Part shown: piece after piece, positions 307 to 49,819 of the stretch
Numbering within the stretch: position 1 is the stretch's first letter
Layout: each line of letters opens with the position of its first letter
From: Monodelphis domestica
Taxonomy: Eukaryota; Chordata; Mammalia; Didelphimorphia; Didelphidae
Assembly: GCF_027887165.1 (NCBI RefSeq)
Contig: NC_077230.1
Span: 34,237,351-34,301,350, forward strand
Direction: 5' to 3'
DNA length: 64,000 nt
Notes under the pieces: generated by a model
What the model was told of the DNA's origin: nothing
Database searches by the model: none
The model's input: only the letters and a program-made list of their open reading frames with translations
Position numbers and translations under genes: made by a program

Positions 307-408
307 GAAATCGAAGTCAACAAGAAGAAAGACCGCCGGAAAATACTTAAGGCTATTAAGAAAGTTAGAGATTTTTGGGAAAAAAATCATCATTTCGTCT
401 TATTATAG
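307..408 (+). CDS. Gene A: terminal exon, neurabin-like PDZ-SAM protein (partial)
   Basis: Last coding exon of a gene that lies mostly left of the window. It follows a tttctttccaaag acceptor and codes for 33 residues and TAG in phase 0: the last helix of a SAM domain ([15 protein letters not shown]) and a short tail ending FVLL. The same exon recurs at 49718-49819 (gene C) and, more diverged, at 23410-23490 (gene B). SAM domains bind other SAM domains or peptides; in neurabin-1 the SAM sits at the C-terminus, as here. Against gene C I count 9 substitutions in 102 bases, 8 of them changing an amino acid, which is more than in the flanking intron. The neurabin-like assignment rests on gene C, where the PDZ is visible. 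The exon call is firm; the name is inferred. Confidence 0.8.
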   Translation, partial: EIEVNKKKDRRKILKAIKKVRDFWEKNHHFVLL

Positions 409-462
409 AAATTGATGGAAAGAAGACACAGAACCTGAAAGATGGCAAAAATGGAAAATGCA

Positions 463-2411
463 ATTACTTTTGTTATATTGACTTTTCATCATTTTACTTC
501 TGTTACTTTTGTTATATGAACTTTTAAGGGATTTTACTTCCATGTTACTTTTGTTATATGAACTTTTAAGGGATTTTAGTTCCATGTTACTTTTGTTATA
601 TGAACTTTTAATCATTTTATTACTGTTACTTTTGTTATTATTAACTTTTAATTATTTCACTTTCATGTTACATTTGTTATATGAACTTTCAAGGGATTTT
701 ACTTCCATGTTATTTTTGTTATTACTAACTTTTAATCATTTCACTTCCATGTTACTTGTTATATGAACTTTTAATCATTTTATTACTGTTACTTTTTTTA
801 TTAATTTTTAATCATTTCACTTTCGTGTTACATTTGTTATATGAACCTTTAAGGGATTTTACTTCCATGTTACTTTTGTTATATGAACTTTTAAAGGATT
901 TTACTTCCATGTTACTTTTGTTATATGAACTTTTAAGGGATTTTACTTCCATGTTACTTTTGTTATATGAACTTTTAATCATTTTATTACTGTTACTTTT
1001 GCTATTATTAACTTTTAATCATTTCACTTTCATGTTACTTTTGTTATATGAACCTTTAGGGATTTTACTTCCATTTTACTTTTGTTATATGCACGTTACT
1101 TTTGTTATTGTTAACTTTTAATCATTTCACTTCTATGCTACTTTTTTATATGAACTTTTAAGCATTTTATTACTGTTACTTTTGTTATTATTAACTTTTA
1201 ATCTTTTCACTTCTATGTTACTTTTGTTATATGAACTTTTAAGGGATTTTACATCCATGTTACTTTTGTTATATGAAGTTTTAAGGATTTTACGTCCATG
1301 TTACTTTTGTTATATGAACTTGTAAGGGATTTTACTTCCTTGTTACTTTTGTTTCATGAACCTTTAGGGATTTTACTTCCATGTTACTTTTGTTATATGC
1401 ACGTTACTTTTGTTATTATTAACTTTTAATTATTTCACTTCTATGTTACTTTTGTTATATCAACTTTTAAGGGATTTTACATCCATGTTACTTTTGTTAT
1501 ATGAACTTTTAAGGAATTTACTTCTATGTTACTTTTGTTATATGAACTTTTAATGGATTTTACTTCCATGTAACTTTTGTTATATGAACGTTTAAGGTAT
1601 TTTACTTCCATATTACTTTTGTTATATAAACTTTTAAGGAATTTACTTCCATGTTTCTTTTGTTATATGAACTTTTAAGGGATTTTACGTCCATGTTACT
1701 TTTGTTATATGAACTTTTAATCATTTTATTACTGTTACTTTTGTTATTATTAACTTTTAATCATTTCACTTTCATGTTACATTAGTTATATGAACCTTTA
1801 AGGGATTTTACTTCCATGTTACTTTTGTTATATGAACTTTTAAGGGATTTTATATACATTTTACTTTTATTATATGATCTTTTAAGGAATTTACTTCTAT
1901 GTTACTTTTGTTATATGAACTTTTAATCATTTTATTACTATTACTTTTGCTATTATTAACTTTTAATCATTTCACTTTCATTTTACTTTTGTTATATGAA
2001 CCTTTAGGGATTTTACTTCCATGTTACTTTTGTTATATGCACGTTACTTTTGTTATTATTAACTTTTAATTGTTTCAATTCCATGTTACTTTTGTTATAT
2101 GAACTTTTAAGGGATTTTACATCCATGTTACTTTTGTTATATGAACTTTTAAGGATTTTTCTTCCATGTTACTTTTGTTATATGAACTTTTAACGGATTT
2201 TGCTTCCAAGTAACTTTTGTTATATGAACTTTTAATGGATTTTACTTCCATGTAACTTTTGTTATATGAACTTTTAAGGAATTTTACTTCCATGTTACTT
2301 TTGTTATATGAACTTTTAATCATTTTATTACCATTACTTTTGTTATTATTAACTTTTAATCATTTCACTTCTATGTTTCTTTTGTTTCATTATTAACTTT
2401 TAATTATTTCA
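463..2411. repeat. 42-bp minisatellite, 3' region of gene A (about 47 units)
   Basis: Tandem units of 39-42 bp begin 54 bases after the gene A stop codon. Three main unit types alternate. All share ttacttttgttat and differ in the second half: tatgaacttttaagggattt..., tattaacttttaatcatttc..., or a 39-bp form ending tttattactg. Because 42 is a multiple of three, long meaningless open frames appear on both strands. The array lies between the stop codon and the region where gene B has its polyadenylation signal, so it is probably transcribed as 3' UTR. Gene B has at most one diverged unit at the same place (about 23561-23600). Confidence 0.95.
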
Positions 2412-3300
2412 TTTTTAAGTAAGTATTATTTTGATAGAGGATAATTTTTGCACAGGTTAATAATTGTTAGTATCATACATATAACATATGAAAAAATGGT
2501 CATAATATGCACGTATACTTTTTTATAAGAACCAATATGGAATTTCCTCCATATGACCATAATGTAAAAAGCAATCATTCTAATCTAACAAAATATTTAG
2601 TTATTTTTCCTTTTCAACTTTTCATTGCCACTGCCACCAGCTTTAAATAATCTGTCTCAAGTACTCTTTATTAGTTCATAATCCCAGAGAACTCAATAGG
2701 CTTTAGTCAAGCCCTCATGATGCTCTGTTACTTTTGTTTCAGAATCTATATATAAACAAAAGAAATGCATATAAAAATCAGTACATGTTATAGATTTCCT
2801 GTAAGGATTCATATTGTTCATGAGAATCTCCTTATTACCTTACTTTTTTGTCATAATCCTCTCCAAATCATATTTTAAGAGCTACAAAGTATAGTTTTAT
2901 ATTCATCACTCTCTTATAGAATTTAGTTTAAATTTCTATCAAAATATTTTAAATAACAATGAAAATAACTTCATAAAACTTTCCCCCTTAAAATTTCAGT
3001 TCATTCTCTCATAAAGGTATAAAAGCTCAGTGGAATAAGGATACCTCTATAGGATTCATACATAGGCACAGGCAGCACTTATGCTTTGGGACATGGGTGA
3101 ACAGAACACGTTGGAGGGCAATGAAATTAGAGCTAAGAGATATCCCAAAACTATCCTCATTAAGGACATTGTAACATGTAAGGCATCCATTGATGTTAAG
3201 TGAGCAGCCTAGATGTAATCATAAAACTGACTGGACAGGACCCTTCCTCCTGATAGGGAATATTTTAATATGGATACTTGCACACACATATGTATTTCCA
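2412..3300. other. Unique 3' flank of gene A
   Basis: No exon seen. The sequence matches 51229-52110 closely, and up to about 3110 it also matches, more loosely, the 3' flank of gene B at 23600-24400. It is therefore ancestral flank of the gene family. The AATAAA present in gene B (23685) is changed here to a run of A with no hexamer. Confidence 0.6.
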
Positions 3301-3319
3301 TTTAAGTGTGTATACACAT

Positions 3320-4130
3320 ATATACAATAATCTATACTAATAAATAAGCATCATATGAAACTGAGAAACACTAGCAGCTATCCCAATAAATATAAGAGTA
3401 ATGAAAAAATACCAATTCTCCCCAATACTATTTGAAATTTTTCTGGAAATACAATAGTAAGAAGAAAGACAAATCCAGGACCTAAAGGGATGAAAACAGG
3501 AGTATATCTAGTTATTCTTATTTGCTTATAACTGACAGATGTCTTAGACAATCCTAAAAAATCAGGAGATATTGTAACTGAGATGAGAATTTATAGCAAA
3601 TTTCCATTCTACAAAGTAAACCCTCAAAAATCAATTCTATTTCTATATAATAGCCAAAAAGATTCAATGGGAAGTAAAAGAGATAAAAATCACATTGTAA
3701 ATAACTATAAATAGCTGCAAATAACATGTTAGGATCAAACTACTGAAATATACAAACTAATTGTATAAACAACATTATAAAGTGATCCTTCAGGAAGAAA
3801 AGAAAACTGTAAATAGCTGGAGGGAATATTCATTATTCATGACTGGTGATCATAATTTAGGGCAAGTGTCAGTGCTACTCTACTTAACTAATTTCTAGTG
3901 CTATGTCAATCAGATTTTTAAAGGTTACATTATGAAATTCAATAGAATTATAACAACTCAAATTAAAAAAATATATATAAAGGGAAATAATGAATGAAGA
4001 CTGGGAAATATAAAGTCTGTAAATTAAATACTGAGTCCAGACTTCATACTGTTATATGGAAGCAATCACCAAAGCCATACTCTAACGATTAAAAAACTGA
4101 AAATTAAATTTTGTATATATAGTCAGTGAA
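3320..4130 (+). mobile_element. Old L1 ORF2 fragment, sense
   Basis: Decayed sequence resembling the L1 reverse-transcriptase region in sense orientation (blocks resembling accaattctccccaatac and tttctatataatagccaaaa). No open frame remains. Repeated at about 52130-52930. Confidence 0.5.
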
Positions 4131-4139
4131 GGGTGGTTT

Positions 4140-5540
4140 AGCATAAATGTTTGTTCTATTGTGACAAAGGCTTTTTTCTATATCAAAAAATTATGTGGTT
4201 TAGGTCGTTTTTCTTTTCTATATGATTGTCTTTACTCTTTTCCTTATGTTAAACTATCTTTTGTATTCCCCCCATAAATCTAATTTTTTTAACCACAGAT
4301 TGGTTTTTGGATCAATCACTGTATTTTGTTGACAGAATTTTACTAAAAATTGTTAAATTAAGTTTCATTAAATGTCTGGACTTCTGTAATTTTTCCTTCC
4401 CTTGTTTAGGTGTTAGGATTATAATTATTCAGTGAAATTTAATAGTGCTTTCTCAATGTTTTGAAAATATTTTATGTGTATAGTAATACTATAATTATTC
4501 TTTGAAAGTTTGACTCAATTCAGGACTAGGAATTTTTCACCAATATCCCCTGAATTCCCACTTTGGCATGGCATTTCATTTATACTTTGATTTCTTTCTC
4601 TCAATTGGATTATTAAAGAACTTTATATGGGATTCTGTTAGTTTGGATATTTAACATGCTCGAAGATTTTTCTCTATTTTGTATTTTCAGTTTTATCATC
4701 ATAAAATCATATAAAGTTGGAAATTATTTGATTCCAGTTTTGTGTTTTATTATATTTTCTAGATTCTTAATTGGATTTTCTTCCATCTTTCTAATCATGT
4801 TGATGATTTGTCAAATTTGTTCATCTTTTTCAAAAAATCAACTTGTAGTTTTATGCATTATTTTCATCATTTGCAAAGTGGATTTTTTACTTAGTTTTCT
4901 CTAATTTTTCATAGTTCATTTTTCTATATTTTCTATTTATTAGCTGCGTTTCAGATATTTTAGTATGTTATTTCATCCTTACAATTTCCAATTGCATTTC
5001 CTGTTTTACCTAAAAGTTTATCAATTAAAAAGTCATGTTGGTTTTCCAAGTTATGTCTCTTAAAATTGTTTTATGTTATTTCAAATTTTTTAAATTGTCT
5101 TTTCTTTTTCCTATAAAATGTGGGAAATGAATAATAAACTCTTTTATGAATTTATATTGTCAATCAAATTTCTATATTGGCCATGTTGAAAAAATACGAA
5201 TGTCTTATTCTGTACTCTTGAGTCTTTGATTTATCAGGAGGCAAATAGTATGCTTTTTCATTAAGCATCTTGAATGATGGTTGGTCATTACACTGATTAG
5301 AATTCCTAATTTGTTCAATGTTTTTGTCATTACCATATTGTTCTCCTTGGCTCTGTTTACTTGTCTCTCCTTCACACTTTACAAGTCTTCCCATTATTTT
5401 CTCAAACCTTCTTCCATTATTTATTGAAATACAATACCATTCTATCATATTTCCATCACATAACTTTCAGCCATTCCCCAATTTGTGGGCTTGCCTTCAA
5501 ATTTCTATCCCTAGCCACATTAAAAAGGTATATAATATAT
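4140..5540 (-). mobile_element. Old antisense L1 fragments
   Basis: Up to about 5060 this reads as the reverse complement of the L1 endonuclease/RT region (for example tttttcaaaaaatcaacttg). From about 5180 to 5540 it resembles the reverse complement of an L1 3' end, including cagccattccccaatttgtg. Heavily decayed and probably more than one insertion. Second copy at about 52960-54360. Confidence 0.55.
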
Positions 5541-5689
5541 TTTAAAATATGTATGCAAATACATATATGTGATATATAATATCCTGATGTATATGACTAT
5601 CACTCCCTTCCTCTGGCCTCCCTCTCATTACCCCATTTTCCCACAGTAAGGCCAGCTACATCTCTCACTATGAGTTCTAAGGGGGTAGT

Positions 5690-5870
5690 ATCCTTTTTTA
5701 TACTTTTTAAACTTTTACCTTATATCTTAGTACCAATACTAAGTAAAAAGTTCCAAGGCAGAAGAACAGTAAGGTCTAGGCAAAGTTGCCAAATTTGAAT
5801 GCAGGACCTGTCTGTAGGTCTGGCTCTCTAACCATTGAAAAACCCAGCTGTCCTGGTATGATCCCTTAAT
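5690..5870 (-). mobile_element. tRNA-derived SINE, antisense
   Basis: Reverse-complement match to the SINE at 37100-37305: it begins with the tail region (aacttttaccttat), then ccaaggcagaagaacagtaagg, then the diverged head ending near cccagctgtcctgg. Second copy at about 54525-54685. Confidence 0.75.
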
Positions 5871-6129
5871 AATAAAGTCTTCAGCCATCATATCAGTGTG
5901 TTACGTTTACCCTATTAGGTGATTAGGAGCTGGTTACTTTAACACTATGAACATCAATTAGACTTTGGTAAGAGATATTTGCTTCAACAATATAGTAAGA
6001 AAAGAATTCCAAATATTACCCCAACACGTTTTCTCCTATTTCAACACAATCACAGGCAAGGATGAGATCATACTTAACTTGGATTTGATCCACCAAATTT
6101 ACTTACAAATCTCTCACTGAACAATGGAA

Positions 6130-6800
6130 GACTCTCTCTCTCTCTCTTTTTTTTTTTTTTTTTTTTTTTGCTTTTAAGCATAGCCCAGCCTGGACCCCAG
6201 GCCCCAGACTTTCTGTAAGTGGCTAGAGCTTCTGAACTTTTAAAATGCACAAGGCCTGGCCATCTGCATTCTCTTTCACCTAAAAGAAGGCAAAAAAGAC
6301 ACAAAATGACAAAAGTCACAGCATGGCATGTACTCCCAACTTTAGCTCAAATCCAGGTATCACATGATCTGAGAGCCCTATGGCAACTGGCCATCCTCAC
6401 ACACTCTACAGGAAGGGAAGGGCCTTGACCATGTTTCCCATTGGATACTTTTGAGTATACCCCAGTTCTACAGCCCATCAAAAAGGCTCCTCTTCACCAC
6501 ATTGTCAGAGGACTCAAAACAAATACCTTGCAAATACTCCACAGCCTGCAGGGAGATCAACCTATGCCAGTTCATAGATGGATCTGTTTGGTTGGCTTTC
6601 CATTATGATCACAATAAATGTTTCTGAAATAAGAAAAGTACCCCAAATGCCTAAGATTAACCACTATTTCATGATGGAAAATCCTTCATCAAGGGACTGA
6701 AACTACAGTTCTCAAAAGAAAAATTGTAAGTTATCATCAACTTTATTAAACATGATTGCAAATCGTTAATAAAATTGTATGCATTAACAGAATGGGGGCT
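6130..6800. other. CT/poly-T tract and unclassified repeat-like sequence
   Basis: A (CT)n run and a poly-T of more than 20 bases at 6132-6169 suggest the 3' tail of an antisense retrocopy. The following GC-richer 600 bases are shared with copy 2 (54950-55610), and I could not assign them to a family. No convincing protein is encoded. Confidence 0.35.
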
Positions 6801-6829
6801 CTACCTCAGGAGGTAGCATTACAAAAGGT

Positions 6830-7010
6830 CAGAACTGCCAATTTTGGAGAGGATATATAAAAATTAGCACAATGAGTTGTTCTACCTTTGACATGGCATA
6901 TCCATTTGGGAAAACAATTTGGAATTATAATTTTGAAAAAGTGACTTAAAATGTCTATCCCCTTTGAATATTTTACTCTCAAGCATACATTCCCAAGAAA
7001 CAAAAAAACT
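6830..7010 (+). mobile_element. Old L1 3' ORF2 fragment, sense
   Basis: The stretch around tttgggaaaacaatttggaa followed by aaaaagtgacttaaaatg matches the usual L1 ORF2 end pattern. It is short and decayed. Copy 2 lies at about 55640-55820. Confidence 0.5.
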
Positions 7011-7049
7011 AAAAAGTTCCCCCTGACATCTAAATATTCATTATACCCT

Positions 7050-7205
7050 TTATGTTGTTGGAGGCAATTAGGGGAAGAAGTGGTTAGCATGCCGGGCATG
7101 GTGTCAGAAGACACAAGTTCAGATCTAGTTTCAGTTACTCATATCCTAGGCAAATCGCTTAAATGTTATATTGCCTGTGTCTTGGCTCAAATTTTGCTCA
7201 AATAA
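7050..7205 (+). mobile_element. tRNA/CORE-type SINE, sense
   Basis: A gaggcaattaggggaagaag head, a gttcagatctagtttcag B-box region and a ctaggcaaatcgcttaaat block follow the layout of marsupial MAR1/WALLSI-type SINEs. Diverged. Copy 2 lies at about 55865-56020. Confidence 0.6.
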
Positions 7206-7489
7206 ACTCGGACAGTATAACATTTAAATGAAGTAGTTTCTGGGAATTTTTTAAGGTTTACAATCCTAACCTTATGAAGTAGGTTCTGAGAATTTCTAAG
7301 GTTTACAGCACCGAGCGGGCAACCTGGACAGAGCTACAAAGACTCCACATATTGCTCTAGCCTTCCAGGAGGTTTTGGCCTCAGGACATATCCAGTACAA
7401 CCCAGCTGAATTTAATCCCATCAAAAGTGTTCAGAGGTCAGGGAAGTCCAAACTCCAAGATCCCTTCCTCACAGACTTCTGGACTTTAA

Positions 7490-8775
7490 TATAAAGAAGG
7501 AAACAATAAGTAAATTAGGTGAACACAGAATAGTATACCTGGTAGACCTTTTGGAAGGGAAAGATTTTAAAACCAAGCAGGACATAGAAAGAGTCACAAA
7601 ATATAAAATAAATAATTTTGTCTACATCAAATTAAAAAGTTTTTGTACAAAGAACACCAATGTAACTAAAATCAGAAGGGTAACAACAAATTGGGAAACA
7701 ATCTTCATAAAAACTCTGACAAAGGTTTAATTACTCAAATTTACAAAGAGCTAAATCAATTGTACAAAAACCCAAGCCATTCTCCAATTGATGAATGGGC
7801 AAGGGACATGAACAGGCAGTTCTCAGCCAAAGAAATCAAAACTATTAATAAGCACATGAAAAAGTTTTCTACATCTCTTATAATCAGAGAGATGCAAATC
7901 AAAACAACTCTGAGGTATCACGTCACACCTAGCTGATTGGCTAACATAACAGCTATGAAAAATAGTGAATGCTGGAGTGGATGTGGCAAAGTAGGTACAC
8001 TAATTCATTGCTGGTGGAGTTGAGAATTAATCCAACCATTCTGGAGGGCAATTTGGAACTATGCCCAAAGGGCGATAAAAGAATGTCTGCCCTGTGATCC
8101 AGCCATAGCACTACTGGGCTTGTACCCCAAAGAGATTATAAGGAAAAAGACTTGTACAAGAATATTCATAGCTGCACTCTTTGTGGTGGCCAAAAATTGG
8201 AAAATGAAGGGATGCCCTTCAATTGGGGAATGGCTGAACAAATTGTGTATATGTTGGTGATGGAATACTATTGTGCTAAAAGGAATAATAAAGTAGAGGA
8301 ATTCCATAGTGACTGGAACAACCTCCAGGAAGTGATGCAGAAGGAAAGGAGCAGAACCAGGAGAACATTGTACACAGAGACTGATACATTGTGGTACAAT
8401 CGAAGGTAATGGACTTCTCCATTAGTGGAGATGCAATGTCCCTGAACAATCTGCAGGGATCTAAAAAACACTATCCACAAGCAGAAGATAAACTGTGGTT
8501 GTAAAAATACAGATGAAAAGCAACTGCTTGACTACAGGGGTGGAGGGGATATGACTGAGGAGAGACTCTATATGAACACTCTAATGCAAATACCAACAAC
8601 ATGGAAATTGGTTTGAATCAAGAACACATGTGATACCCAGTGGAATTGCGTGTTGGCTGTGGGAGAGGTGGTGGGAGTGGGGGAGGTAAGAAAAGAAAAT
8701 GATCTTTGTTTCCAATGAATAATGTTTGGAAATGACCAAATAAAAATTAAAAAATAAATAAAAATAAAACCCTTT
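7490..8775 (+). mobile_element. 5'-truncated L1, sense
   Basis: Carries the last part of L1 ORF2 (recognisable residues include SKLGEHRIVYL, then [15 protein letters not shown], then [18 protein letters not shown]), broken by a few stops and frame changes. A 3' UTR follows and the A-rich tail ends near 8768. Copy 2 (60655-61943) is nearly identical, so the insertion predates the tandem duplication. Confidence 0.9.
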
Positions 8776-9500
8776 TCTCTCCCTACTCAAGTTTGGGGGA
8801 ACTCAGGCTTTGGCAGCCTGAGCCCCCTGCTAGTCAAGTTGACTGACCCTGGGTTTGGCCCCTTGGCCACAGTTCAGAAACAGGGCAATAGGAGCTGAGG
8901 TAAAGCCTGACAGAATCAAAATGCCTTTTTTCAGGTTTCTCTTCTCTCAGTCCCTTCAATTGAGAAGTGTTGGGGGGAAATTTCCTGTCACAAGCAGGAA
9001 AAAGTGGGTAACCCTCAGGATAAAGTCTTATTCCACCTTCTCTCTTCAGCTTCTCCCCACTGAAAGACCAATTGCTCTTCTGAAGATAACCTTCTCTTCC
9101 TCAAGATTCCAACCTCCTGTTCCTGGTGCCCCTTCCCCAATGAAGTGATCAGATCCACACACTCTTCAGCCTGGCACTTTTTGTTTAGTGCCTGCCTCTG
9201 TCACAAGATCTAATGTTGGGCATTTTAAGTGAAAAATTCAATTATTTAGTTTTTTATTTAAAATTATTCATCTAGTGTGTCATAGAATGATTGAAAATAT
9301 TTCTTTATTCTGAACTTAAGCATTACATAAAGTGAGCATGTCTCAAAGTAGAAAAGTGGTTTGTATATAGAATTAAGAATCTCTACCATATGGAGCTAGA
9401 ATTATTTTTATTGGTATATAATACATTCAAAATGTTTCTTTCAAATTTATCCTGTTTCTATGGTTTATAAAAAGGTTAATTCTAGGCTTCCTTCTGTTAT
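8776..9500. other. Unassigned non-coding flank
   Basis: GC-richer than its surroundings up to about 9200, then AT-rich. Short open frames are not convincing. This stretch and 7236-7489 may be two halves of one older element split by the L1 at 7490-8775, but I could not identify it. Copy 2 lies at about 61944-62690. Confidence 0.3.
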
Positions 9501-9509
9501 CTTTTATGG

Positions 9510-11490
9510 AGATCCTAGGTTTTTTTTTTTTTTATAAGAACCCAATATTTGATCAATTACCCCAAATCTATACCACTGAGTCTCCAATGTCTCTTAGACA
9601 GTACCATAATGTTGAGATGATCACTGCTTTATAGTACAGTTTAAGATCTGGTACTGGTAGGCTCCCACCATTCACATTTTTCCCCCATTAGTCCCCTTGA
9701 TATTCCTTTGTACTTCCAGATGAATTTTGTAATTATTTTTTCGAGTTCAATAAAATAGTTTTTTTAGTAGTTTTATTAATATGGTACTGAAAAAGTAAAT
9801 TAATTTTTAGGTAGGAAGTATCATTTTATTATGTTAATTCATCCTAGCCATGAGTCATTGTACTTTCCCAATTATTTAGATCTAGTTTTAATTGTGTGTT
9901 TTGTAATTGGGTTCATATAATTCCTGCTTGTCTTGGCAAGTAGATTGCTAAATATTTTATATTGTCTAGGGCAATTAAAATGAAATTTCTTTTTCTAAGT
10001 CTTGCTGCTGAATTGTTGTTGGAAATATGGCTGGCAGAGGGTTTCTCCCACTCCCATCTTCTGTGCTAGTTTTGTTGATTTCAGAATCTTAGCAGTAGAT
10101 AGAAAGCAAACAAGAACAGTTCTAACTTTCAGAAACTGGTTGGGCCTGTGTCTTTGGGCTGAATTGAGAAGAGGCACTCGGAATCAGGATTGGGAAGCCA
10201 ACACTCCTCCCACCTCCAACACCAGGAAGGAAGTAACAACCAGGCAGGAATAAGGGCTAGTCACAAGACCCAACTGCCACTCCCAGTTGCCCCTTCCCCC
10301 ACCAACTATCAGTCTTGTTTCCTTTCCAAATAGCCTTCTTACCCTTCCCCCTAACTTTTTGATTTTAGTCAGTCTCTCTCTTTTCCCCTCCCTAATGTTA
10401 CTCCTTTTCCAATGTCCTCCCCTCTTATTTATTCCCCTCTTACTATAGTGCCTTTTAAATGACCCCCCAACCTCTCCCTCTCTTGTGTAGCTCCCCTCCC
10501 CACATGCCCATTTATTATCCTTCTACTTCTCCATAAGAAACAATACAATTCTCTGCCCCAATGGATCTGATTGTTCTCTCTCTGAGTCAATTTCAGTGTG
10601 TATAAGATTTAAGTATTACATGTTGCCAAACTCTTCCATTCTTCCATTGAATTGATCTTCTCCCCCTCCCCCATGAGCTTCTTTATGAAAAATATATTTA
10701 CCCCATTTTATCTCTTTCCAATTTCTCTTAGTATTAACCTATGTTTACACCTAGTTTTTTAAATACATTTTGACATATCATCCTATACAGTTTGTCACTG
10801 TACCCTCTTTCTAGCTAACCTGATGAAAATAACATTTTTTAAGTGTTATCAATATCTTTTCTTATAGAAATACAAATCATTTTTACCTCATTGGGTCCCT
10901 TAAAAAGTTTGGTTTTCTTTCTTTTTTCTTTCTTACCTTTTGGTGATTCTCTTGAGTTCTGTTTTGGGGTATGACATTTTCTGTATAAGTCAGGTCTTTC
11001 CTTTAGGAATGCTTGGAAGTCTTTTTAAAATTAAATTACCAAAATTTCCAGTGCATGACTATAATCAATATTGCTGGGTAGTTGATTCTTGGTTGTAGAC
11101 CCAGTTTCTTCATATTCTGTAATATCATATTTTTTGCCTTGCAGTCCATCAGAGTGGATGCAGCCAGTTCCTGTGTATCCTAACTGTGCATCCATGATAT
11201 CTGAATGGTTTCTTTGTAGCATCTTTTCCTTAATCTGGAAGTTCTTGAACTTGGCTATAACATTCCTTGGTGTTGTCAATTAGCTATTAAATGCAGCAGG
11301 TGGTCTGTGGATTCTTTCAATCTCTACTTTATCCTCTTGTTCAAGAATGCCTGAGCAGTTTTCTTGAATAATTTCCTGTAGAATGATATCCAGACTTTTT
11401 TCTTTGGTCATAATTTTCTGGTAGTCCAATGTTTCTTAAATTGTCTCTTCTGGATCTATTTTTTAGGTCTTTTTTCCCAACGATCCCTTT
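9510..11490 (-). mobile_element. Old antisense L1, internally rearranged
   Basis: 9510-10010 is the reverse complement of the ORF2 RT region; it parallels 57550-57970 of the young L1. After about 270 unassigned bases, 10280-11490 continues with the pyrimidine-rich spacer between the ORFs and ORF1-side sequence, like that in the antisense L1 at 15300-16400. It ends next to the first gene B exon. Copy 2 starts at about 62690 and runs off the window. Confidence 0.65.
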
Positions 11491-11501
11491 TTCTTCTGCA
11501 G

Positions 11502-11598: not shown

Positions 11599-11610
11599 GT
11601 GAGAGTACAG

Positions 11611-11650
<40 letters not shown>

Positions 11651-29320: not shown

Positions 29321-29439
29321 TAAAGATCGAATATTTTCTTGTTCAAGAAGCTTGTTGATAGCTTTTAATCTTCTCTGTGAAAAAATGATGCAAAGAAGAG
29401 TCCAGAACCTCGATTTATTTTCTTGTCAAATAGACAAAG
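29321..29439 (+). CDS. Gene C exon 1 of those seen (start codon, PDZ strand 1)
   Basis: Acceptor ttttttcaag, donor aaag|gtaagc. From ATG 29385: [19 protein letters not shown], matching the neurabin RV-LELFPVELEKD segment just before the PDZ loop. Upstream of the ATG the frame is open through [11 protein letters not shown]. This resembles the neurabin KIKFSCAP PP1-binding site, but the RVxF spacing is lost. Confidence 0.7.
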
Positions 29440-31282: not shown

Positions 31283-31338
<56 letters not shown>

Positions 31339-40300: not shown

Positions 40301-43300
40301 TACAGAACTATGCAGGAAGAGAGGCTTCATTTTGTAGTGTTAGGAAGTGATATGTATTGAAGTGGTCCCCCTGATGTCCATCCTGGATGTCTGAAGCTCA
40401 CCAGGTCAGTAACATCTTACTGCTTTTGGCAGCTTCCTGCAACTAAATGGCAGTGAAGGTGTCACCTTGCCTTGAAAAACACAATTCTTAACTGGGAGAG
40501 CTTTTAAGCTTTGGATTCTATCCCTAACCTCATTCCTATCTACATGCCTATCTCTTTCCCTCTTCCCATTCCCATCCATGTCCCCATCTCAATTCCCAAA
40601 CCTATCCCTGTCTCTAATCTCATGTAAATCTCTCGTCCTATCCTGATTGGTTTTACTCAATAGCTACTAGTCATGGAATTTGTGCATATGTTTTTGAATG
40701 TAATAGATCTTAAGGGGTCATTTGAGAATAAAGAGGTCAGATAAGTGGCTAGCAGGAATAAATGAGATGGTTGTGACTGTTGGAGAGGAAAAGGATTAAA
40801 TAGCGTGTAATTAATAGATTTATTTTGGTTCATTTGGTAAATTTCAGGCTAACATTTTTCAAGACAAATATAAAGACATGAACACATACAAAGTGAATAT
40901 GGAACAGAAACCTGATGAATCAAATAAAGAAGGCACATTTTTACCATTGGCCCCAGAAGAAGAATTATTACTAGAACAATTTAAAATAAAACCTAAAGAG
41001 ATAAAAAACGAAGATTTATCACCAGGGCAATTATTAGCCCAAGGGGATTTCAATTCAGGTAAGACATATATCCTTGCTCAAAACATTTGACCCTAAAGTT
41101 TTCTGATAGAAAAGAGAAATTTAGAACAAATGTTTTTATCACTCACCGAATCTCTGGTCTCTATTCCTTTTCCCTTCATATCTCTAATAATGAGAATGCT
41201 AGCTGCTTTATAAGGCTTTCTCAACTATTGGTGATCCCACTCTTGGTGATTGAACTATAAGGGACCTTGGAAATATTAATCTATCCTATATGTATGTCAG
41301 AATGTCATTTAGCGTCTGCTTCAAAATATGCAGTGATAGGAAACTCATTTTCTCAACATCCAGGCCACACTATTGCTAAATTACTTAAGGTTTTAGAAAA
41401 GATTTCAGTTCAATTTTTTTTGCTCAGGCTTTTTTTTTTATAATTTTGTCCTTTTCCCTTCTTTTGAAATAATACAGAAAAAGATCTTGTTCCTCTTTCC
41501 CTATTACTATCCATTTGACCTATAAAATCAACTTATTTTCCACCTAAGACATTTTTTTAATCTCTATGATCATGTTTAGCCTGAAGACAATCTTTATATG
41601 ATTTCTTATTACATCGTTGGGACATGGTTTTGTTTAGAGTCTATTATCCATCCTACTTTAATGACATCCATTTTGGTTTATCAACATTCTGTTGGTCTCA
41701 TTGCAACAAAATCTTTTTTTTTTAATTCAATTACTTATAGGAATAATTTTGGCCATTTCTTTTGACATTTTAAAATTCAGATACCCCCATCTCCCTTTCC
41801 CTCCCTGAGGGGGTGAAGAATCTGATATAGGTTATACTCATACTCTCATGTAATACCTATTTCCATATGGTTCCCATCATGATAAAAACACATAACACAC
41901 ATATTCAATAGAAATCTCATGAAGATTTATAATATAACTTATAATTTATAATATAACTATTATAGTAGAAGATGTCAAGTTTTGATCTACACTCAGATTT
42001 TTTTTTTGTAGCTTCCTTGACCATTGATAGTATGTTCTTCATGTGTTACCTTGGAAGCTCAATGATAATGGTTTAGTCCTTCACAGTTGATCATTGTATA
42101 ATATTTCTGTTATAGTCTCTAGTTATAGTTGTTCTGCTCACTTTTTCTGAATTCATCCTGTTCATTGTTCCTTATGGCATAATAGTAATCCATTACAACC
42201 ATATTCCACAGCTTGATCATTCAACCACTAAATAATGGACAACCCCTCAGTTTCCAATTCTTTGCCACTATAAAAAGAGCTGATAATAATATTTTGGCAC
42301 AGTTAATTCCTTTTATTCTATCTTTGATCCATTTGGGTGAGATTGTTGTATAGACCTTTGCGTATTGTTTCATATAAGTCTCTAGAATGGTTGTATCAAT
42401 TCACACTATCACCAATGAAGTTTATTAGTGTTCCAATTTTCCCACCTCCTCTTCAACATTTATTATTTTCCATTTTGGTCATGTTAGCTAATCTGAAGGG
42501 TATGAGATCATTTTGCAGAGTTGGCTTAATTTTCATTTCTTTCATCAATAGTGATTGGGAATTTTTTAAAATATGGCTATGTAAAGTTTTAATCTCTTCT
42601 GAGAAATGCCTATTCAAATCCTTTGACCATTTCTCAATTGAGGAATGTTGTGTATTATAAATTTGACTCAGTTCTCTTTATATTTAAGAAATGAGACTTT
42701 TATCAAAAATTGCTATAAATTTTTCCTCAGAATTTCTTTTTCATTTCTAATCTTAAGTACATTTGTTTTATTTGTGCGAAACCTTTTTAATATAATGAAA
42801 TCAAAATGCCCTTTTAATCAAGTATGCCGATGATTTATTTATTTTATTTTTTCATAAAACAAATTATTTGTCTTATTTTATTAGTTCTATGGTTTTCTTA
42901 CTTTCAATCTATTCATCCCTTGCTTGATTTTCATGATTTCCAATTTGCTGTTTAATTGAGGATTTTTAAATTTGTCCTTTTCTAGGATTTTTAGTTGTAT
43001 CACCAATTCGCTTATGACCTGCTTTTTTTCTACTTTACCTGATATAAGCAATAAGAGATGTGAATTTTCCTCTAAGTACGGCTTTGGCTACATGCTAAAA
43101 AATTTGATATGTTGTCTCCTTATAATCATTGTCTTTAATGAAATTATTGATTGTTTCTATGATTCATTCTTTGACCCATTTATTCTTTAGGCAAAAATTT
43201 GTTTATATCTATCATATGCCATATGCCATAAATTTATTTATTGGCAAATAGAGAAGGTTTCCTATTTTAGCTATAAATATCACTTGTATAAATGGTTCAT

Positions 43301-46300
43301 TAGAAAACACCTTTTTCCTGGGTGCCATCCATTACTTGCATTCCTTTTGCACTGTGAATCTTTGAACATTTGGAGTATCACTGTCATTGCTAACAGAAGG
43401 AAATCTGGTTCAGACTTATGAATCTGAGATCTGGAAGAATGAATACTGGTGAATTGAGCAACAGTTTGAAAATGAATGCTGTACTTCAGGGGCTGACTTT
43501 TTTTTGGCTGCCAAGTACCAACAATTAATATGATTGTTGTTCAGAGAATATTAGAACCTCTAGTGTGAGGGCTTGCTGAACGCTTTTCAGGGCTGCTTAT
43601 CTACCTTTGGTGTCTACTTGTCACTCAGCTCTTACCTGTGGTTCCAAGAAGTTGTAGCATGTGTTGCAGCCTGTTAAAACTGAACAGATGGGTTAAATTA
43701 GGTTGATATCTACTCCAGGCTTGTGAAGACCTCCTCCTGGAATAGGTGGATGAGAAAATTTGCTTCAGTAGCCATGAATGTAGCTGAAGTAAGCACTGTG
43801 GAGTGCGTAGAGTTTGGTTGGACATCTAAGACAATAAAGTCATTTAGGTTCAGTGTCAATCAACTAGGTTCAGTGTCAGTTATCCAGACTTTTGTCTTGC
43901 CAAATGATTTAGATGATTCTGCAAGAAAGAGTGAGGCTGACAATTTTGTGCAACTCACTTAAATCCAATTCATACACAAGTGAAGATATTACTCTGTGAT
44001 GTCACTGGTACTTTTCAAACATAAGGATCACCACCACCACTGCCAACTGATTAATCAACATTTTTGACTGTCTCATCCTTTTAAGTCTTCTTCAATCTAG
44101 CTTTACTTGTTTTAAACTGCCCTTGCAGCGGGACTAGTATTTTCTTGGTAGATATCCTAGATCATCAGTCTTAGAAGGAACCTCAAAGACCACCCACTTT
44201 AATCCCTTCATTTTGTAGGTGAGAAAAATGAGGCCCGGAGAAGATATTCAGATAGTTACCTTCCCAGCTGTGACTTCATGGCTTCTGGCTCTAAAATCAA
44301 GGCCAAAGGTAGGTTCTTCACTTTATAAGATGTCTAAGACTTGGTCAGCAATAGTAACCAATGAAAGATTGCTGTTGTCCCTTGCTAATCCTAGTAAAAT
44401 ATTTGTGTACTGTTGTACTCATTGAATTATTTATTTTTCTTAGAGACCCAAATAAAAATAGAAAAAGAAGAAGAAGAAATAGTAGTGGAGGAAGAGATTA
44501 TTAGCACTGGAAAACCTACAGAAGGAAAGGCTAAAAAGGGATTTTCCTGGTTCCGGTAAGAGATGTACTTTTTATATATGGATAACAATATTCTTAATAA
44601 ACAAAACATTTTATTTCTCCTGGAATTTACCTCTTTGGCTACTGTTTGCTATGTTTTTTGCCCCTTTCTACAAAAGAACATTATTTATATGAATTTTCTC
44701 AGTTGTTCACATCTTCCTCAAATGGGTGCTGGCATAGAGTAAAGGTGTCAAATTCACAGTTTATGGATGTGACCCAGAGAGATCCATTTCTTTTTGAGTC
44801 TGATAATAACAACTTAGTGGGAAAAGTATAGGACATGGAATCTGAGTTATCTGCATTCAGACTGGAGTTTTATCACCTAGTCATGTGTTCAAATTCAAGT
44901 ATTTTCTGATCAATAGGTTACAGATTTCCCATCTATAAAATATTACATGTTGACATCGAGCGTAACTTCAGATCTAAATCAGTGACCCCCTCGCTCCTTA
45001 CAAGACAAATCATGTATTAGTTGTGTTTAATGTGGAGGAGGAAGAAGTAGAGAAATGATATTGTGCCATATGCACACATATTTAACTTAACTGGCTTCCA
45101 TATCTAGTTTTATATTTTTACCTATAGCGCCAAATTTGATCTTGCCCCTTCTCTAATACATGTGCTGACATAGCACGTATCCTACAAAAAGTGTAACTCC
45201 AAACTTTTTTCACATGTAGCTTTGTCTTTTTTTTCAGAATTGAAATTCATGTAATTTTTATAGTGTGCATCTATTTAAGATCTTTTTTTTGTGTCATAGT
45301 AGAATGTATTTTTGTGTTTTAATAATTATTTCCCTTTCAAATGTTGTATGATTCTAGCAATATCAAAGAACGCAAGCTGTGGAACTTCTTTCATTTTAAA
45401 AAACATGACAAACAAGTAAAGAATGTGCACAAGTGGGAAGAAATTGATCAAGAGGTAAATTTTCATTATGTTAAATTTATCAAAGATTTAAGTTTGTTTC
45501 CCCATTTAAATTACTAGAGAGTGAGCTTTTTCTTGAATTAGAAAACTATAATTTACCTTGGATTGAGGAGTTAACATTCTGTCATAATTAATAATCAGTA
45601 TTAATCAGGAATAAAATTACCCGAGTAAGGAGCAAAAGTACCATAGCGGCAACTGTTTGGCCTTGAAGTCACTTTTTTGTTCCCAGAGATCATTCAAGAA
45701 CCTCTCTCAAGAAAAGGGAATGATTAAGAACTCTTAAAACATTTGAATTCTCTGTATTTGGATGTTCTAAGGACAAAGGATAATTGATTCAACTTTTGGC
45801 CTCAGAATATTGTTGGCTGAAAATTTTCTAAAATGATGGCACAGAGTATTGAAATACACTTAACCTAGAGAAAAGTGCAAGTTGAATTGTTATGGGCTGA
45901 TGCAGGTAGGAAGTGATAACATATTAGGATAATTTTCCCTCCATGAGACAGAAGGGGTCTCTGAAGGGGCTGTACAATATTTAAAAAATAACAGGTAGGT
46001 AAAATGGTAAAAGTTTACCAAGAAATACCACTGTTGGTTGTTGGCAAAATAAGAGGAGAGATTGCATGTGTATGTCTTGATTGACTGTGCCTGTGTTACT
46101 GAGCAAAAAAAAGAACATGAGAGCCACAGATGGGCCAATATGACAATGAAGGAAAATAATAAATGTTGAAGGGGATATGGCAGAATTGGGACACTAATGC
46201 ATTGCTAGTGAAGTTGTGAATTAAGACAAGCATTCTGGACGGAAATTTGGAATTATGAGCAAAGGGCTCTAAAAGAACACATTTGATCCTTTGATCCAGC

Positions 46301-49300
46301 AATACCACTGCTGGGTTTGTACTCCAAAGAGATAATAAGGAAAAATGCGTATGCAAAATATTCATAGCTGAGCTCTTTGTGGTGGCAAAAATTGGAAAAT
46401 GAGGGCATGTTCCTCAATTCAGGAATGAATAAACAAATTGTGGTATATGTTGGTGATGGAATACTATTGTGTTATAAGGAATGATGACCTACTTGATTTC
46501 TATATGAACTGGAAAGACCTTCATGAACTGAAGCACAGTGAAATGAGCAGAACCAATCGAATGATATACACTGAAAGTGAAACATTGTAGAACTATCCAA
46601 CATAATGAACTTTACTACTAGCAGCATACAATAGTTTTTGCTGTCTATGGTTATATTAACATATAGCCATGGAAGCTTTTTAAATATTGTGTCTCTTGAC
46701 CTCTAGGTATTGGATGATTACTGTCCTTATTCTACTGAAGCCCCTAAAACATTGCCAACACAGTGGACAAATATTGAAGTTGGTAATTGGTTATGGAGCA
46801 TTGGAATGGAGGAGTATGTTGTAAAATTTTATTGTAAAGGAATAAATGGTGAAAAACTCCTTATACTGGACAATCGCTCGCTAAAAGTAAGTATGCTATT
46901 CTAGGTGATATAGATGAATGTTTACAAAAATATAAATTGCCTAGATTAACATATGAAGAAATAGAATTCTTAAATAATCCCATATCAGAAAAAGAAATTG
47001 AACAAGCCATCAAGGATCTCCTTAAGAAAAACATCCCCAGGGCCTGATGAATTAACAAGGGAATTCTATCAAACATCAAAGAAAAGCTCAAAGTTCATTT
47101 GGAGAAGAACAAAAGATCAAGGATATCCAGGGAAATAATGGAAAAAAAAAAGCAAAGGAAGGTGGCCTTTGTAGTACCAGATCTGAAACTATGGTAGCCT
47201 TTGTAGTACCAGATCTCAAACTATACTATAAAGCAGTGGTCATCAAAACAATTTGGTAATGGCTAAGAGGCAGAAAGGAGGATCAGTGGAATAGACTTGG
47301 GATAAGTGACCTCAACAAGACAGTCTATGACAAGCCCAAACATCATAGCTTTTGGGACAAAATGTAAAATAAATAATTTTGATTACATCAAATTAAAAAA
47401 GTTTTGTACAAACAAAACCAATGCAACCAAAATTAGAAGGGAAATAACAAATCGGGAAACAATCTTCATAAAAAATCTCTGACAAAGGTCTAATTACTCA
47501 AATTGACAAAGAAGTAAATCAATTGTCCAAAAAAATCAAGCCATTCTATAATTAATAAATGAGCAAGGGACATGAATAGGCAATTTTCAGTCAAAGGAAT
47601 CAAAACTATTAATAAGCACATGAAACAGTGTTCTAAATCTCTAATAATCAGAGAAATGCAAATCAAAACAACTCACCTCATACCTAGAAGATTGGCTAAC
47701 ATGACAGCAAAAGAAAGTAATGAATGATGGGGAGAGGGTGTGTGGAAAAGTTGGGATATTTGCATTGCTGGTAGACTTGTGAATTGATCCAACCATTCTG
47801 GAGGGCCATTTGGAACTATGCCCAAAAGGGGCTAAAAGACTGTCTGCCCATCGATCCAGCCATAACACTGCTGGGTTTGTAACTCAAAGAGATAATAAGG
47901 AAAAAGACATGTACACGAATATTCGTAGCTGCACTCTTTTTGGTGGCAAAAAATTGGAAAATGAGGGGATGCCCTTCAGTTGGGGAATGGCTGAACAAAT
48001 TATGGTATATGTTGGTGATGGAATTACTATTGTGCTCAAAGGAATAATAAAATAGAGGAATTCCATGGGAACTGTAACAGCCTCCAAGAAGTAATGCAGA
48101 GTGAAAGGAGCAGAACCAGGAGAACATTGTACACAAAGACTGATACACTGTGGTACAATCGAATGTAATGGATTTTTCCATTAGTGGCAATTCAGTGATC
48201 CTGAAGAACCCAGAGGGATCTATGAGAAAGAACACTATTCACATTCAGAAGAAAAACTGTAGGAGTAGAAACACCAAAGAAAAACAACTGCTTGATTACA
48301 TGGGTCTAGGGGGATATGTTTGGGGATGTAGACCATAAAGGAACATCCTAGTGCAAACATCAACAGCATGGAAACAGGTTATGATCAAGGACACATGTAA
48401 TACCCAGTGGAATTGCGCATCAGCAATGGGAAGGGTGGGAAGGGGGAGGGGAGGGAGGAATAGTATATGATTTTTGTAACCAAGGATTAATGTTTGAAAT
48501 TGAGTAAATTAAAAAATAAATAAAATGAAATGAAATGAAAAAAAAAAGAGTATATAAGGCCACATTTGAATTAATGACTTTTTAAAAAATTTAATTTATT
48601 TAGTCAATTTTTAGAACATTATTCCTTGGTTACAAGAATTATATTCTTCCCCTCCCTGCCCTCTCCCCACCCTTCCTGAATCTATTGCTCAATTTCATTG
48701 GGTATTACATGTATCCTTGATCAGAACCAATTTCTATGTTGTTGGTGTTTGCATTGTGATGATCATTTAGAGTCTACCTCCCCAGCCATATCTGAGTTAA
48801 GGACCTCTTGTTTCTAGGCCTAGCTCTCAATTTGCTAAGCCACCTGTCATTCTTTTTTAGAACTCTGTGCATTAAAAAAAAAAAAACCCACTGGTAACCA
48901 GGAAAGCAGTTTTGTAGTTTTTGAACAGTCAGATTAATTTCACTGAAACAGATTAAAAAACATTAATCATGGAAAATGGCAAAATTTCATTTCATTTATA
49001 GTAAATAGAATCTCATATTTTATAAGGCCTAAATTGCAAATCCTGGTTTGTATAATACCTTTGTCTTTGACTAGAGATACTTGATCCATGAAATATGATA
49101 ACTTACTAGACAAAAAAAATTCTTCTTGGATTCATTTATTTCCTAAGAGAATAGAATTTTGAGGGTTTTAAAATATACTTTCTCTCATAACATGTTTCTA
49201 GGATTTTCCTAAAATATAGTATTTGATTTAAGTTCCTTTAAGCTGTAAATGTCTGATATTCTGAGCCTTCAATTTTAATTTAATTTTTAATTTTAAAAAT

Positions 49301-49819
49301 AAATTATTAATACATTTAAGTATTGATTGATTTTATTATTCATTCTTTTACTTAAGTAAACAGGAATGTTTTAATTAATTTAATTTTCCATTTAATTTTT
49401 TTTCAATTCGGGATTGTTTCAATAGCACAAGCATCATTGGACTCCCATCTAGATAAATAACAATTAATGCATGAAATCCCAAAACGTTTCACAAAGGCAA
49501 ACTATTATGGTAGTTCCTTAATGTATTTTAGGATTGTACGATGTAATTTTTTACTTCATCCAGACCTAGGGAATATTTTTCTATTGTTGGAAAATCTGTG
49601 TTCTTTAAAATGATCCTATAGCAGCTTCATTTTCAGGTTCATTATGTAAAGAATTAGAAAATCTATTCATCTGAATAAGTAGATGCAAAATTACACTTTT
49701 AATTTTTCTTTCCAAAGGAAATCGAAGTCAACAGGAAGAAAGACCGCCGGAAAATACTTAAGGCTATTAAGAAAATTAGAGATATTTTGGAAAAAAATCA
49801 TATTTGGGTCTTACTATAG
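29321..49819 (+). CDS. Gene C: neurabin-like PDZ-SAM protein (complete C-terminal gene)
   Basis: Eleven exons with canonical splice sites and compatible phases. From ATG 29385 they give 420 residues. Residues about 11-97 form a PDZ domain: NELGLC carboxylate loop, [24 protein letters not shown], then [10 protein letters not shown], with the order and IGRE-P ending of the neurabin/spinophilin PDZ. A short helix ([16 protein letters not shown]) matches the start of the neurabin coiled coil. Residues 158-327 are a charged linker with a [10 protein letters not shown] motif, and about 346-408 are a SAM domain. Neurabin-1 is about 1,100 residues; this gene lacks its actin-binding N-terminus and most of its coiled coil. 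By analogy it would be a cytoplasmic scaffold. No exon is broken. Whether the frame starts at 29385 or continues from an upstream exon is open. Confidence 0.75.
29700..31200 (+). mobile_element. Old L1 3' half, sense, in gene C intron
   Basis: Decayed ORF2 end (about 29750-30860, with many stops) followed by an L1 3' UTR ending near 31200. It occupies most of the first intron. Confidence 0.7.
31284..31336. repeat. AT microsatellite
   Basis: Uninterrupted AT dinucleotides, about 26 units. Confidence 0.98.
31508..31628 (+). CDS. Gene C PDZ exon 2
   Basis: Acceptor gtatttatag, donor gatg|gtgagt, phases 1 in, 2 out. Encodes the carboxylate-binding loop (NELGLC) and [17 protein letters not shown], the second and third PDZ strands. 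Confidence 0.8.
31629..33377. other. Gene C intron, mostly unassigned
   Basis: Parts of 31730-32360 may be old L1. The stretch 32500-33120 is not recognised; opposed open frames there look like chance. Confidence 0.35.
33378..33485 (+). CDS. Gene C PDZ exon 3
   Basis: Acceptor atttttcag, donor tcca|gtaagt, phases 2 in, 2 out. Encodes [20 protein letters not shown] and the helix that lines the peptide groove. Confidence 0.8.
33832..33862. repeat. GTTTT microsatellite
   Basis: About six gtttt units in the intron before exon 33961. Confidence 0.9.
33961..34066 (+). CDS. Gene C PDZ exon 4 and short helix
   Basis: Acceptor ttgtacctag, donor acag|gtatta, phases 2 in, 0 out. Closes the PDZ with [10 protein letters not shown], then [20 protein letters not shown], matching the neurabin segment GREKP...LISQTLEQERRQRELL. 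Confidence 0.8.
34067..35866. other. Gene C intron
   Basis: An L2/MIR3-like tail lies at about 35345-35460. 34690-35200 may be old LINE sequence. No further exon is required by the phases. Confidence 0.4.
35867..35949 (+). CDS. Gene C exon 5
   Basis: Acceptor tccatttaaag, donor ggccag|gtatat, phases 0 in, 2 out. Encodes [20 protein letters not shown] and a tryptophan-rich end. It has no match to neurabin that I recognise. The phases require it to join exons 4 and 6. Confidence 0.55.
35950..37084. other. Gene C intron, unassigned
   Basis: 36400-36760 is GC-richer and repeat-like, possibly an L1 5' UTR or LTR fragment, with poly-T runs. No exon seen. Confidence 0.3.
37085..37322 (+). mobile_element. 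Full-length tRNA-derived SINE with target-site duplication
   Basis: The element (37100-37305) starts gggggcagctgggtagctca, has a tRNA-like A box (tagctcagtgg) and B box (ggttcaaatctgg), and ends in poly-A. The 15-bp repeats tatgcaacaggctag at 37085-37099 and 37308-37322 are identical. It resembles the marsupial SINE1/WSINE type and is the youngest-looking SINE in the window. Confidence 0.93.
37363..38030 (-). mobile_element. Possible solo LTR fossil
   Basis: A GC-richer block with LTR-like composition and no coding region. Exact ends and family are not determined. It looks old and alone, with no internal part beside it. Confidence 0.3.
38555..38715 (+). mobile_element. MIR SINE
   Basis: Contains aggctaagtgacttgcccaa, then ttaatacaactaattagtgg, the MIR core, just upstream of a gene C exon. 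Confidence 0.7.
38748..38835 (+). CDS. Gene C exon 6 (helical linker)
   Basis: Acceptor cttccacag, donor gcag|gtaaga, phases 2 in, 0 out. Encodes [18 protein letters not shown] and [10 protein letters not shown]. Matching exon in gene B at 11502-11598. Confidence 0.7.
38836..40847. other. Gene C intron
   Basis: From about 39715 it aligns with 11656-12712 of gene B. It has a TA run at 39857-39885 and a ccctatcc-rich stretch at 40500-40620. Confidence 0.55.
40848..41058 (+). CDS. Gene C exon 7 (acidic linker)
   Basis: Acceptor aatttcag, donor tcag|gtaaga, phases 0 in, 1 out. 70 codons of low-complexity charged sequence, including [16 protein letters not shown] and [12 protein letters not shown]. 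It is 26 codons longer than the gene B exon. Confidence 0.75.
41690..43205 (-). mobile_element. Antisense L1, same insertion as in gene B
   Basis: Left junction (attctgttggtct) and sequence match 12960-14523. The L1 then stops and gene C intron resumes near 43238, at the place matching 19615 in gene B. About 5.1 kb is absent. Confidence 0.8.
43720..44040 (+). mobile_element. Retroelement with CAC tail, shared with gene B
   Basis: Matches 20130-20435 in sequence and place, with the same (CAC)n tail. Confidence 0.5.
44190..44310 (+). mobile_element. MIR SINE, shared with gene B
   Basis: Core at cattttgtaggtgagaaaaa, followed by gaggcccggagaag. Same place as 20565-20695. Confidence 0.65.
44444..44555 (+). 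CDS. Gene C exon 8 (glutamate-rich)
   Basis: Acceptor tttttcttag, donor ttccg|gtaaga, phases 1 in, 2 out. Encodes [19 protein letters not shown] and ends KKGFSWF. Confidence 0.78.
45358..45454 (+). CDS. Gene C exon 9 (aromatic-basic motif)
   Basis: Acceptor gattctag, donor agag|gtaaat, phases 2 in, 0 out. Encodes [20 protein letters not shown], highly similar to gene B exon 21718-21814. Confidence 0.78.
45535..46645 (+). mobile_element. Insertion in gene C intron with L1 3' end
   Basis: Gene B has only 214 bp between the matching exons, whereas gene C has about 1.25 kb. 46110-46640 is a 5'-truncated sense L1 (ORF2 end, decayed). 45540-46110 is not identified. Confidence 0.65.
46707..46886 (+). 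CDS. Gene C SAM exon
   Basis: Acceptor gacctctag, donor aaaa|gtaagt, phase 0 both ends, 60 codons. After a proline/threonine lead comes [20 protein letters not shown]... to [10 protein letters not shown], the first SAM helices. It resembles the neurabin-1 SAM (WTVQQVSHWL, INGE/ITGEQLLQLDG). Confidence 0.85.
46907..48548 (+). mobile_element. Internally deleted sense L1 next to the SAM exon
   Basis: Starts inside ORF2 (LQKYKLPRL) about 20 bases after the SAM exon donor. It jumps near 47090 to a later ORF2 part and runs to a 3' UTR and A-rich tail (aatgaaatgaaatgaaaaaa). Absent from gene B. Many stops. Confidence 0.8.
48560..48855 (-). mobile_element. Antisense L1 3' end inside an antisense SINE
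   Basis: 48570-48790 is a reversed L1 3' UTR. 48790-48855 ends with ttgctaagccacctgtcat, the remnant of the SINE seen intact at 22425-22605. Confidence 0.6.
49718..49819 (+). CDS. Gene C terminal exon
   Basis: After acceptor tttccaaag: 33 codons and TAG, ending the SAM with [15 protein letters not shown], then a tail ending IWVLL. In phase with the SAM exon 46707-46886. Copy of gene A's last exon. Confidence 0.85.
   Translation, partial: EIEVNRKKDRRKILKAIKKIRDILEKNHIWVLL

Follow-up and report, generated by a model that had tools for sequence, protein, structure and literature searches.

A tandem family of small PDZ–SAM genes related to neurabin in the opossum genome

Gene C and its neighbours

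We analysed a 64,000-nucleotide stretch of Monodelphis domestica DNA (assembly GCF_027887165.1, contig NC_077230.1, positions 34,237,351 to 34,301,350; hereafter the window) that carries three related loci, A, B, and C, whose products or remnants resemble neurabin, a conserved brain and synaptic scaffold protein. The centre of this study is gene C, which comprises 11 exons on the forward strand (29385–49819), separated by ten introns that all begin with GT and end with AG. The exons sum to 1263 nt and join in phase to give 420 residues and a stop codon, just as a sequence-only reading of the window had assembled them, and a Pfam profile search of the product finds the two domains named there, a PDZ followed by a SAM, both above the curated cut-offs (PDZ: 27.5 bits, cut-off 23.2, E 4.3e-6; SAM: 41 bits, cut-offs 20.5 and 23, E 2.1e-10). 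The frame of exon 1 stays open in the 5' direction as far as an acceptor-like AG near 29320, and the DNA from this AG onward is identical in the three copies compared; for these reasons gene C may possess further 5' exons, and its start possibly lies upstream of 29385.

The same reading described the three loci as standing head to tail. All of them do lie in one orientation, but the window does not hold three whole genes: C is whole, A is partial, and B is broken. What the window holds of A is its last exon, a copy of the gene C type (C-type); its PDZ and SAM exons lie upstream, at C4:34205218 and C4:34226283, and nine of its 11 exons were seen, all open (exon 5 lies outside the fetched DNA). 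Locus B (12713–23490), the representative of a second type (B-type), has counterparts of exons 7–11 only. A candidate exon 6 of B near 11502 was considered and is unproven.

Relationship to neurabin

Three lines of evidence tie gene C to neurabin and bear out the ancestry proposed from the sequence alone: matches to solved structures, intron positions, and a tree of PDZ domains. Among solved structures, the best single-PDZ match of gene C is neurabin, with up to 44.4 bits for neurabin-1 and up to 43.8 for neurabin-2, about 12 bits ahead of the best single-PDZ chain from elsewhere (DLG2, 32.0 bits). Its SAM matches that of neurabin-1 (2gle) with a domain score of 40.6 bits, the next single domain shown being about 15 bits lower (25.2). 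Five intron positions, with their phases, are common to gene C and PPP1R9A of the same genome (Table 1); the exon after FVIGRE also ends in the same phase (0) in both, but is about ten residues shorter in gene C. Because intron positions and phases match those of PPP1R9A, the sequence evidence indicates that gene C is derived from a neurabin-type gene by duplication of DNA and not as a retrocopy. In the PDZ tree, the C-type genes group with PPP1R9A and PPP1R9B with a support of 94/94.

The presumptive relatives lie elsewhere in the opossum genome, where 86 of 3988 first candidates were scored. PPP1R9A occurs at one place (C5, 327.08–327.10 Mb), and a spinophilin-like PDZ with a coiled coil occurs at C2, 202.62–202.67 Mb, with a SAMD14-like SAM about 30 kb away. 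We take the C5 locus to be PPP1R9A and the C2 loci to be PPP1R9B and SAMD14, two neighbouring genes. The SAMD14-like SAM has an intron at the same place as the PPP1R9A SAM, the LK border, and the C2 pair looks as if one PDZ–SAM gene had been split in two.

The claim that gene C has dropped the actin-binding N-terminus and the long coiled coil of neurabin agrees with our searches of the window, for which human N-terminal, PP1-docking, and coiled-coil segments served as queries. Nothing in the window credibly matched the actin-binding N-terminus (best E 0.018, on the minus strand and outside gene C) or the coiled coil, which has no counterpart in gene C; the human coiled-coil sequence did find a matching exon on C5 (89%) and on C2 (67%). 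The PP1-docking segment aligned to gene C only just before, and from, the motif RVxxLxLF onward. The N-terminal region could possibly be carried by an unseen, diverged upstream exon.

The array on chromosome C4

Gene C is one of many. When its product was used as a query, the best 100 of 509 candidates were all on C4, and the copies fall within 33.6–38.3 Mb in two blocks, none being found between 35.46 and 37.14 Mb. DNA searches with single exons gave the following counts, all of which are lower bounds. PDZ exon 2 had 40 matches (40 of 43 candidates scored), at least 31 at 98–100% identity and nine at 88–91%. The C-type SAM exon had 33, at least 31 at 97–100% and two at 74–75%, and the B-type SAM exon 35, at least 31 at 94–100%, three in isolated diverged exons, and a last, weak one in a C-type copy. 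The sequence-only reading had spoken of a fast-changing, locally amplified family, and these whole-genome counts, with at least 31 C-type copies, indicate that it understated the amplification. C-type and B-type SAM exons alternate along C4 in 57 of 61 neighbour pairs, with a median spacing of 60 kb between the C-type SAM exons of the main block. One copy lies on the opposite strand, the C-type PDZ exon at 34540328 has no SAM exon listed, and the C-type SAM exon at 38012126 has no PDZ exon listed. Three diverged single SAM exons stand in or beside the array, at C4:35460336 (minus strand), 37512582, and 37697826 (L062, L088, and L081), the last of which contains a stop in the frame read; they are perhaps older members of the family.

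The C-type exons are open throughout. Two further C-type copies, fetched exon by exon, have 420 codons each and intact splice sites, making three complete genes with C, and since the whole 420-codon gene recurs twice elsewhere in the genome, chance is excluded as the origin of its frame. In a copy at 34323659, nine of 11 exons were seen; the 4.1 kb that follow its SAM exon did not yield exon 11. All 94 further C-type exon copies that lie whole within their locus lack stops, lost GT or AG sites, and frame-breaking gaps; this set covers exons within reach of blastn similarity, leaves aside gene C itself (L014, L036), the diverged L062, and copies cut by locus ends, and counts a few copies twice where loci overlap. 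Many of the loci were recruited by protein matches to exon 7 or 10, which biases them towards open exons there, a bias absent from the exon 2 and exon 10 counts obtained by DNA search. A classification by single sites counted one stop in exon 6, yet the translated copies contain none, and we take the apparent stop to be a site whose codon has changed at more than one position.

The window itself records a duplication. Its first segment, which begins in the 3' part of A and stops short of B, recurs at 49413–64000, and the alignments of the two have identities of 85.7% (1–1801, mostly minisatellite), 95.3% (1089–7252), and 98.3% (7247–10832). In A as in C, a minisatellite of about 42 bases starts at most about 60 bases after the stop codon, and given this short distance it may sit inside the 3' untranslated region of both genes. 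Intron 10 of gene C consists largely of LINE-1-like fragments between 46900 and 48535, which resemble 7596–8763 and the LINE-1 at 58754–58938.

Table 1. Features of the window, introns common to gene C and PPP1R9A, and related loci on C2
Feature	Position	Strand	Remarks
Gene C exon 1	29385..29439	+	start codon; RVxxLxLF leads into PDZ
Gene C exon 2	31508..31628	+	PDZ core; at least 31 C4 copies, C counted, identity 98-100%
Gene C exon 3	33378..33485	+	PDZ; both borders as in PPP1R9A, phase 2
Gene C exon 4	33961..34066	+	PDZ end (IGRE-P); 5' border as in PPP1R9A, 3' border common phase only
Gene C exon 5	35867..35949	+	no domain recognised; open in 3/3 other fetched copies
Gene C exon 6	38748..38835	+	no domain recognised; open in 5 other copies
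Gene C exon 7	40848..41058	+	acidic linker; open in 27 other copies
Gene C exon 8	44444..44555	+	acidic linker, FSWF at end; open in 4 other copies
Gene C exon 9	45358..45454	+	basic linker; open in 5 other copies
Gene C exon 10	46707..46886	+	SAM; at least 31 copies at 97-100% on C4, C counted; both borders as in PPP1R9A SAM exon
Gene C exon 11	49718..49819	+	last SAM helix and stop codon
Common intron 1 (gene C/PPP1R9A)	after ELEK/IDK		phase 1
Common intron 2 (gene C/PPP1R9A)	after PDZ DG/LG		phase 2
Common intron 3 (gene C/PPP1R9A)	before FVIGRE/IEIGRE		phase 2
Common intron 4 (gene C/PPP1R9A)	SAM exon start, xLDD		phase 0
Common intron 5 (gene C/PPP1R9A)	SAM exon end, LK		phase 0
Gene A last exon	307..408	+	C-type copy; remaining exons upstream of the window
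Locus B exon 7	12713..12845	+	B-type
Locus B exon 8	20815..20917	+	donor GT lost, TT at 20918-20919
Locus B exon 9	21718..21814	+	homology to gene C exon
Locus B exon 10	21991..22166	+	SAM; 22023-22166 has at least 31 C4 copies, B counted, identity 94-100%
Locus B exon 11	23410..23490	+	exon and stop
Duplicated segment, copy 1	1..10832	+	A's 3' end through to B's upstream flank
Duplicated segment, copy 2	49413..64000	+	interrupted by LINE-1
LINE-1	56407-60115	minus	long open frames of 752 and 496 residues, each measured from stop to stop
Minisatellite (~42 bases) near A	464..2403	.	shortly past gene A stop codon
Same minisatellite near C	49878..51226	.	shortly past gene C stop codon
Spinophilin-like/SAMD14-like loci	C2, 202.62-202.67 Mb		L040, L045, L048-L050, L052, L053, L055

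Selection, alternative explanations, and known relatives

The recent history of the C-type copies was followed in 107 pieces aligned to gene C (identity of at least 88%, length of at least 150; L014, L036, and L062 excluded). The exons (13,937 bases) contain two indels, each a multiple of three in length, and the introns (126,062 bases) contain 355, which makes indels 20-fold rarer in exons; the substitution rates relative to gene C are 0.018 in exons and 0.021 in introns. Exon 7 shows 15 replacement and three silent changes in 26 copies, and exon 10 seven and four in 14 copies; these counts omit L027, an exon-7 copy whose 6-base gap keeps the frame, and L063, whose exon 10 is incomplete. For the older split of the C-type from the B-type, the SAM core (41 codons, dS 0.88–1.0) gives a dN/dS of 0.27–0.33, and PDZ exon 2 (39 codons, six copies) one of 0.20–0.24. 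We read these values as suggestive of long-term constraint combined with fast protein change in the recent copies, among which positive selection is possible.

The account that we consider highly probable is that a neurabin-type gene was copied as DNA to C4, stripped, and split into two subfamilies that were amplified together in tandem, with the frames of the C-type copies preserved. Under this account, a gene with a PDZ and a C-terminal SAM would have been duplicated with its introns onto the C4 chromosome; it would have lost the recognisable actin-binding and PP1-docking N-terminal part and the long coiled coil, with unrelated linker exons coming to stand between PDZ and SAM; and two subfamilies would have arisen, the C-type (PDZ–SAM) and the B-type (SAM, with a PDZ exon detected in a minority). 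Tandem segmental duplication of neighbouring C-type and B-type units would then have produced about 31 nearly alternating pairs. The anatomy, the homology, the copy number as a lower bound, and the open frames and splice sites of the examined C-type exons are direct observations.

A number of results weigh against this account. Replacements are not depleted among the recent copies, the 72 replacement and 21 silent distinct exon changes giving a ratio 1.04 times that expected from the intron spectrum, and the comparison of C-type sequence with the three diverged single SAM exons gives dN/dS of 1.39, 0.57, and 0.65. Exon 1 is absent from the 331-base slice taken of gene A, and none was found for the copy at 34323659 in 7.8 kb surrounding its PDZ exon 2, a stretch with 5.0 kb of upstream sequence. 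Locus B as it stands in the window looks broken, because no PDZ exon was found for it within the window and its exon-8 donor is TT, against GT in four of four sampled other B-type copies. Moreover, two stops interrupt the SAM frame of window B and of 12 of 12 fetched B-type copies when reading starts at the old acceptor. A second acceptor-like AG before 22029, 15 bases 5' of the first SAM tryptophan, gives an open frame in the old phase and could be the exon-10 acceptor of B-type copies. The B-type may be decaying and its coding status is doubtful; PDZ exons at 88–91% number only nine found, against at least 31 B-type SAM exons. As to the family assignment, five multi-PDZ DLG4 chains outrank neurabin by domain sums (52–58 bits), and the SAM tree, with its long branches, left the grouping with neurabin unresolved. 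When placement in another family, which the sequence-only reading had raised against itself, is considered domain by domain, the PDZ goes with neurabin by tree and best match, and the SAM, given its tree, by best match and exon borders.

Part of this evidence is what one would expect of a young segmental-duplication array of passive copies without a role, whose frames are open only through recency. The C-type copies differ by just a few percent and take replacements at the neutral rate, window B lacks its PDZ exon and a splice donor, and B-type SAM exons start with stops in the old frame. Recency fits poorly with 355 aligned intron indels against two in exons, both in frame, with a dN/dS of 0.20–0.33 across the older subfamily split, and with a PDZ exon 2 kept at 98–100% identity in at least 31 copies, and we regard passive copies as improbable. 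That the copy number is an artefact of assembly, produced by unmerged haplotypes, is far less probable still: some copies do score alike in the searched exons (e.g., at 38.04, 38.10, and 38.17 Mb), but the copies are serial on one contig, their intron lengths differ by kilobases, their introns differ by about 2% from those of C, and one copy is on the other strand.

The origin of the family leaves room for another variant, compatible with the account favoured here, in which the founder was a third neurabin paralogue that had survived from the genome duplications of early vertebrates before it was stripped and amplified. The C-type branch falls outside PPP1R9A in the PDZ tree, its fork with PPP1R9A and PPP1R9B being open, and PPP1R9A and the PPP1R9B/SAMD14 pair are both still found at one place each; the branch, however, is so long (2.14 changes per column) that its position is unreliable, and we hold this origin to be possible but rather doubtful. 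By contrast, the proposal that PDZ and SAM came from another scaffold family (e.g., DLG, SHANK, or CNKSR), and that their likeness to neurabin is convergent, is close to refuted. The DLG4 chains stand above neurabin by summed score, but their best single domain shown reaches only 27.8 bits against the gene C PDZ; domain for domain, neurabin is ahead by some 12 bits in the PDZ and some 15 in the SAM, and five intron positions and phases equal those of PPP1R9A.

If duplication, stripping, and tandem amplification of a neurabin-type gene did take place, the intact frames and rapid change would hint at an undescribed role in this group of animals. The presence of PDZ and SAM, the charged linkers, and the fact that no actin or PP1 module was recognised suggest an adaptor gathering PDZ ligands into SAM-linked assemblies, and we tentatively raise the idea, while leaning against it, that the products are small cytoplasmic adaptors. 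Their PDZ would bind the C-terminal tails of partners, their SAM would link them with one another or with further SAM proteins, and they would recruit neither actin nor PP1. The near-neutral replacement rate in frames that stay open would in that case be a mark of diversification like that of reproductive or host-conflict families, a kind of biology suggested by the tandem, fast-changing pattern. An unlikely extension is a two-gene system, each unit pairing a PDZ–SAM gene with a partner mostly reduced to a SAM, in which the SAM-only product would cap or tune the PDZ–SAM assemblies via SAM–SAM contacts, both having been amplified together and diversified under conflict in germline, placenta, or immunity of this marsupial lineage. 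If the account is true, some 30 tandem pairs of a stripped adaptor illustrate how a slowly evolving scaffold may give rise to a rapidly evolving family, and a laboratory marsupial offers a test bed of natural PDZ–SAM proteins uncoupled from actin and PP1.

Public annotation may already call the C4 loci neurabin-1-like, we presume. Among titles and abstract openings of the neurabin, marsupial, and opossum literature in a partial library, no paper on such a neurabin-derived tandem family was found, and the terms neurabin, PPP1R9, and PDZ have zero occurrences in the main text of a paper on marsupial imprinting (PMC9937046). The closest known system is neurabin-1 (PPP1R9A), which has the same type of PDZ, a C-terminal SAM, the same order of domains, and introns in the PDZ and around the SAM exon as in gene C. 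Gene C differs in its 420 residues without a recognisable actin-binding N-terminus, PP1-docking region, or long coiled coil, and in the many tandem C-type copies, whereas PPP1R9A was found at one place. The PDZ of spinophilin (PPP1R9B) is about as close to that of gene C as neurabin-1's is (43.8 versus 44.4 bits). Spinophilin itself has no SAM according to the domain list in PMC5503268, and in this genome the PDZ and SAM parts of spinophilin and SAMD14 are about 30 kb apart on C2, unlike in gene C. As a mode of evolution, the nearest parallel is given by the Abp genes of rodents, a tandem, lineage-specific family with rapid local duplication (PMC2291036); the Abp genes encode secretoglobins, whereas the C4 family starts from a conserved intracellular scaffold.

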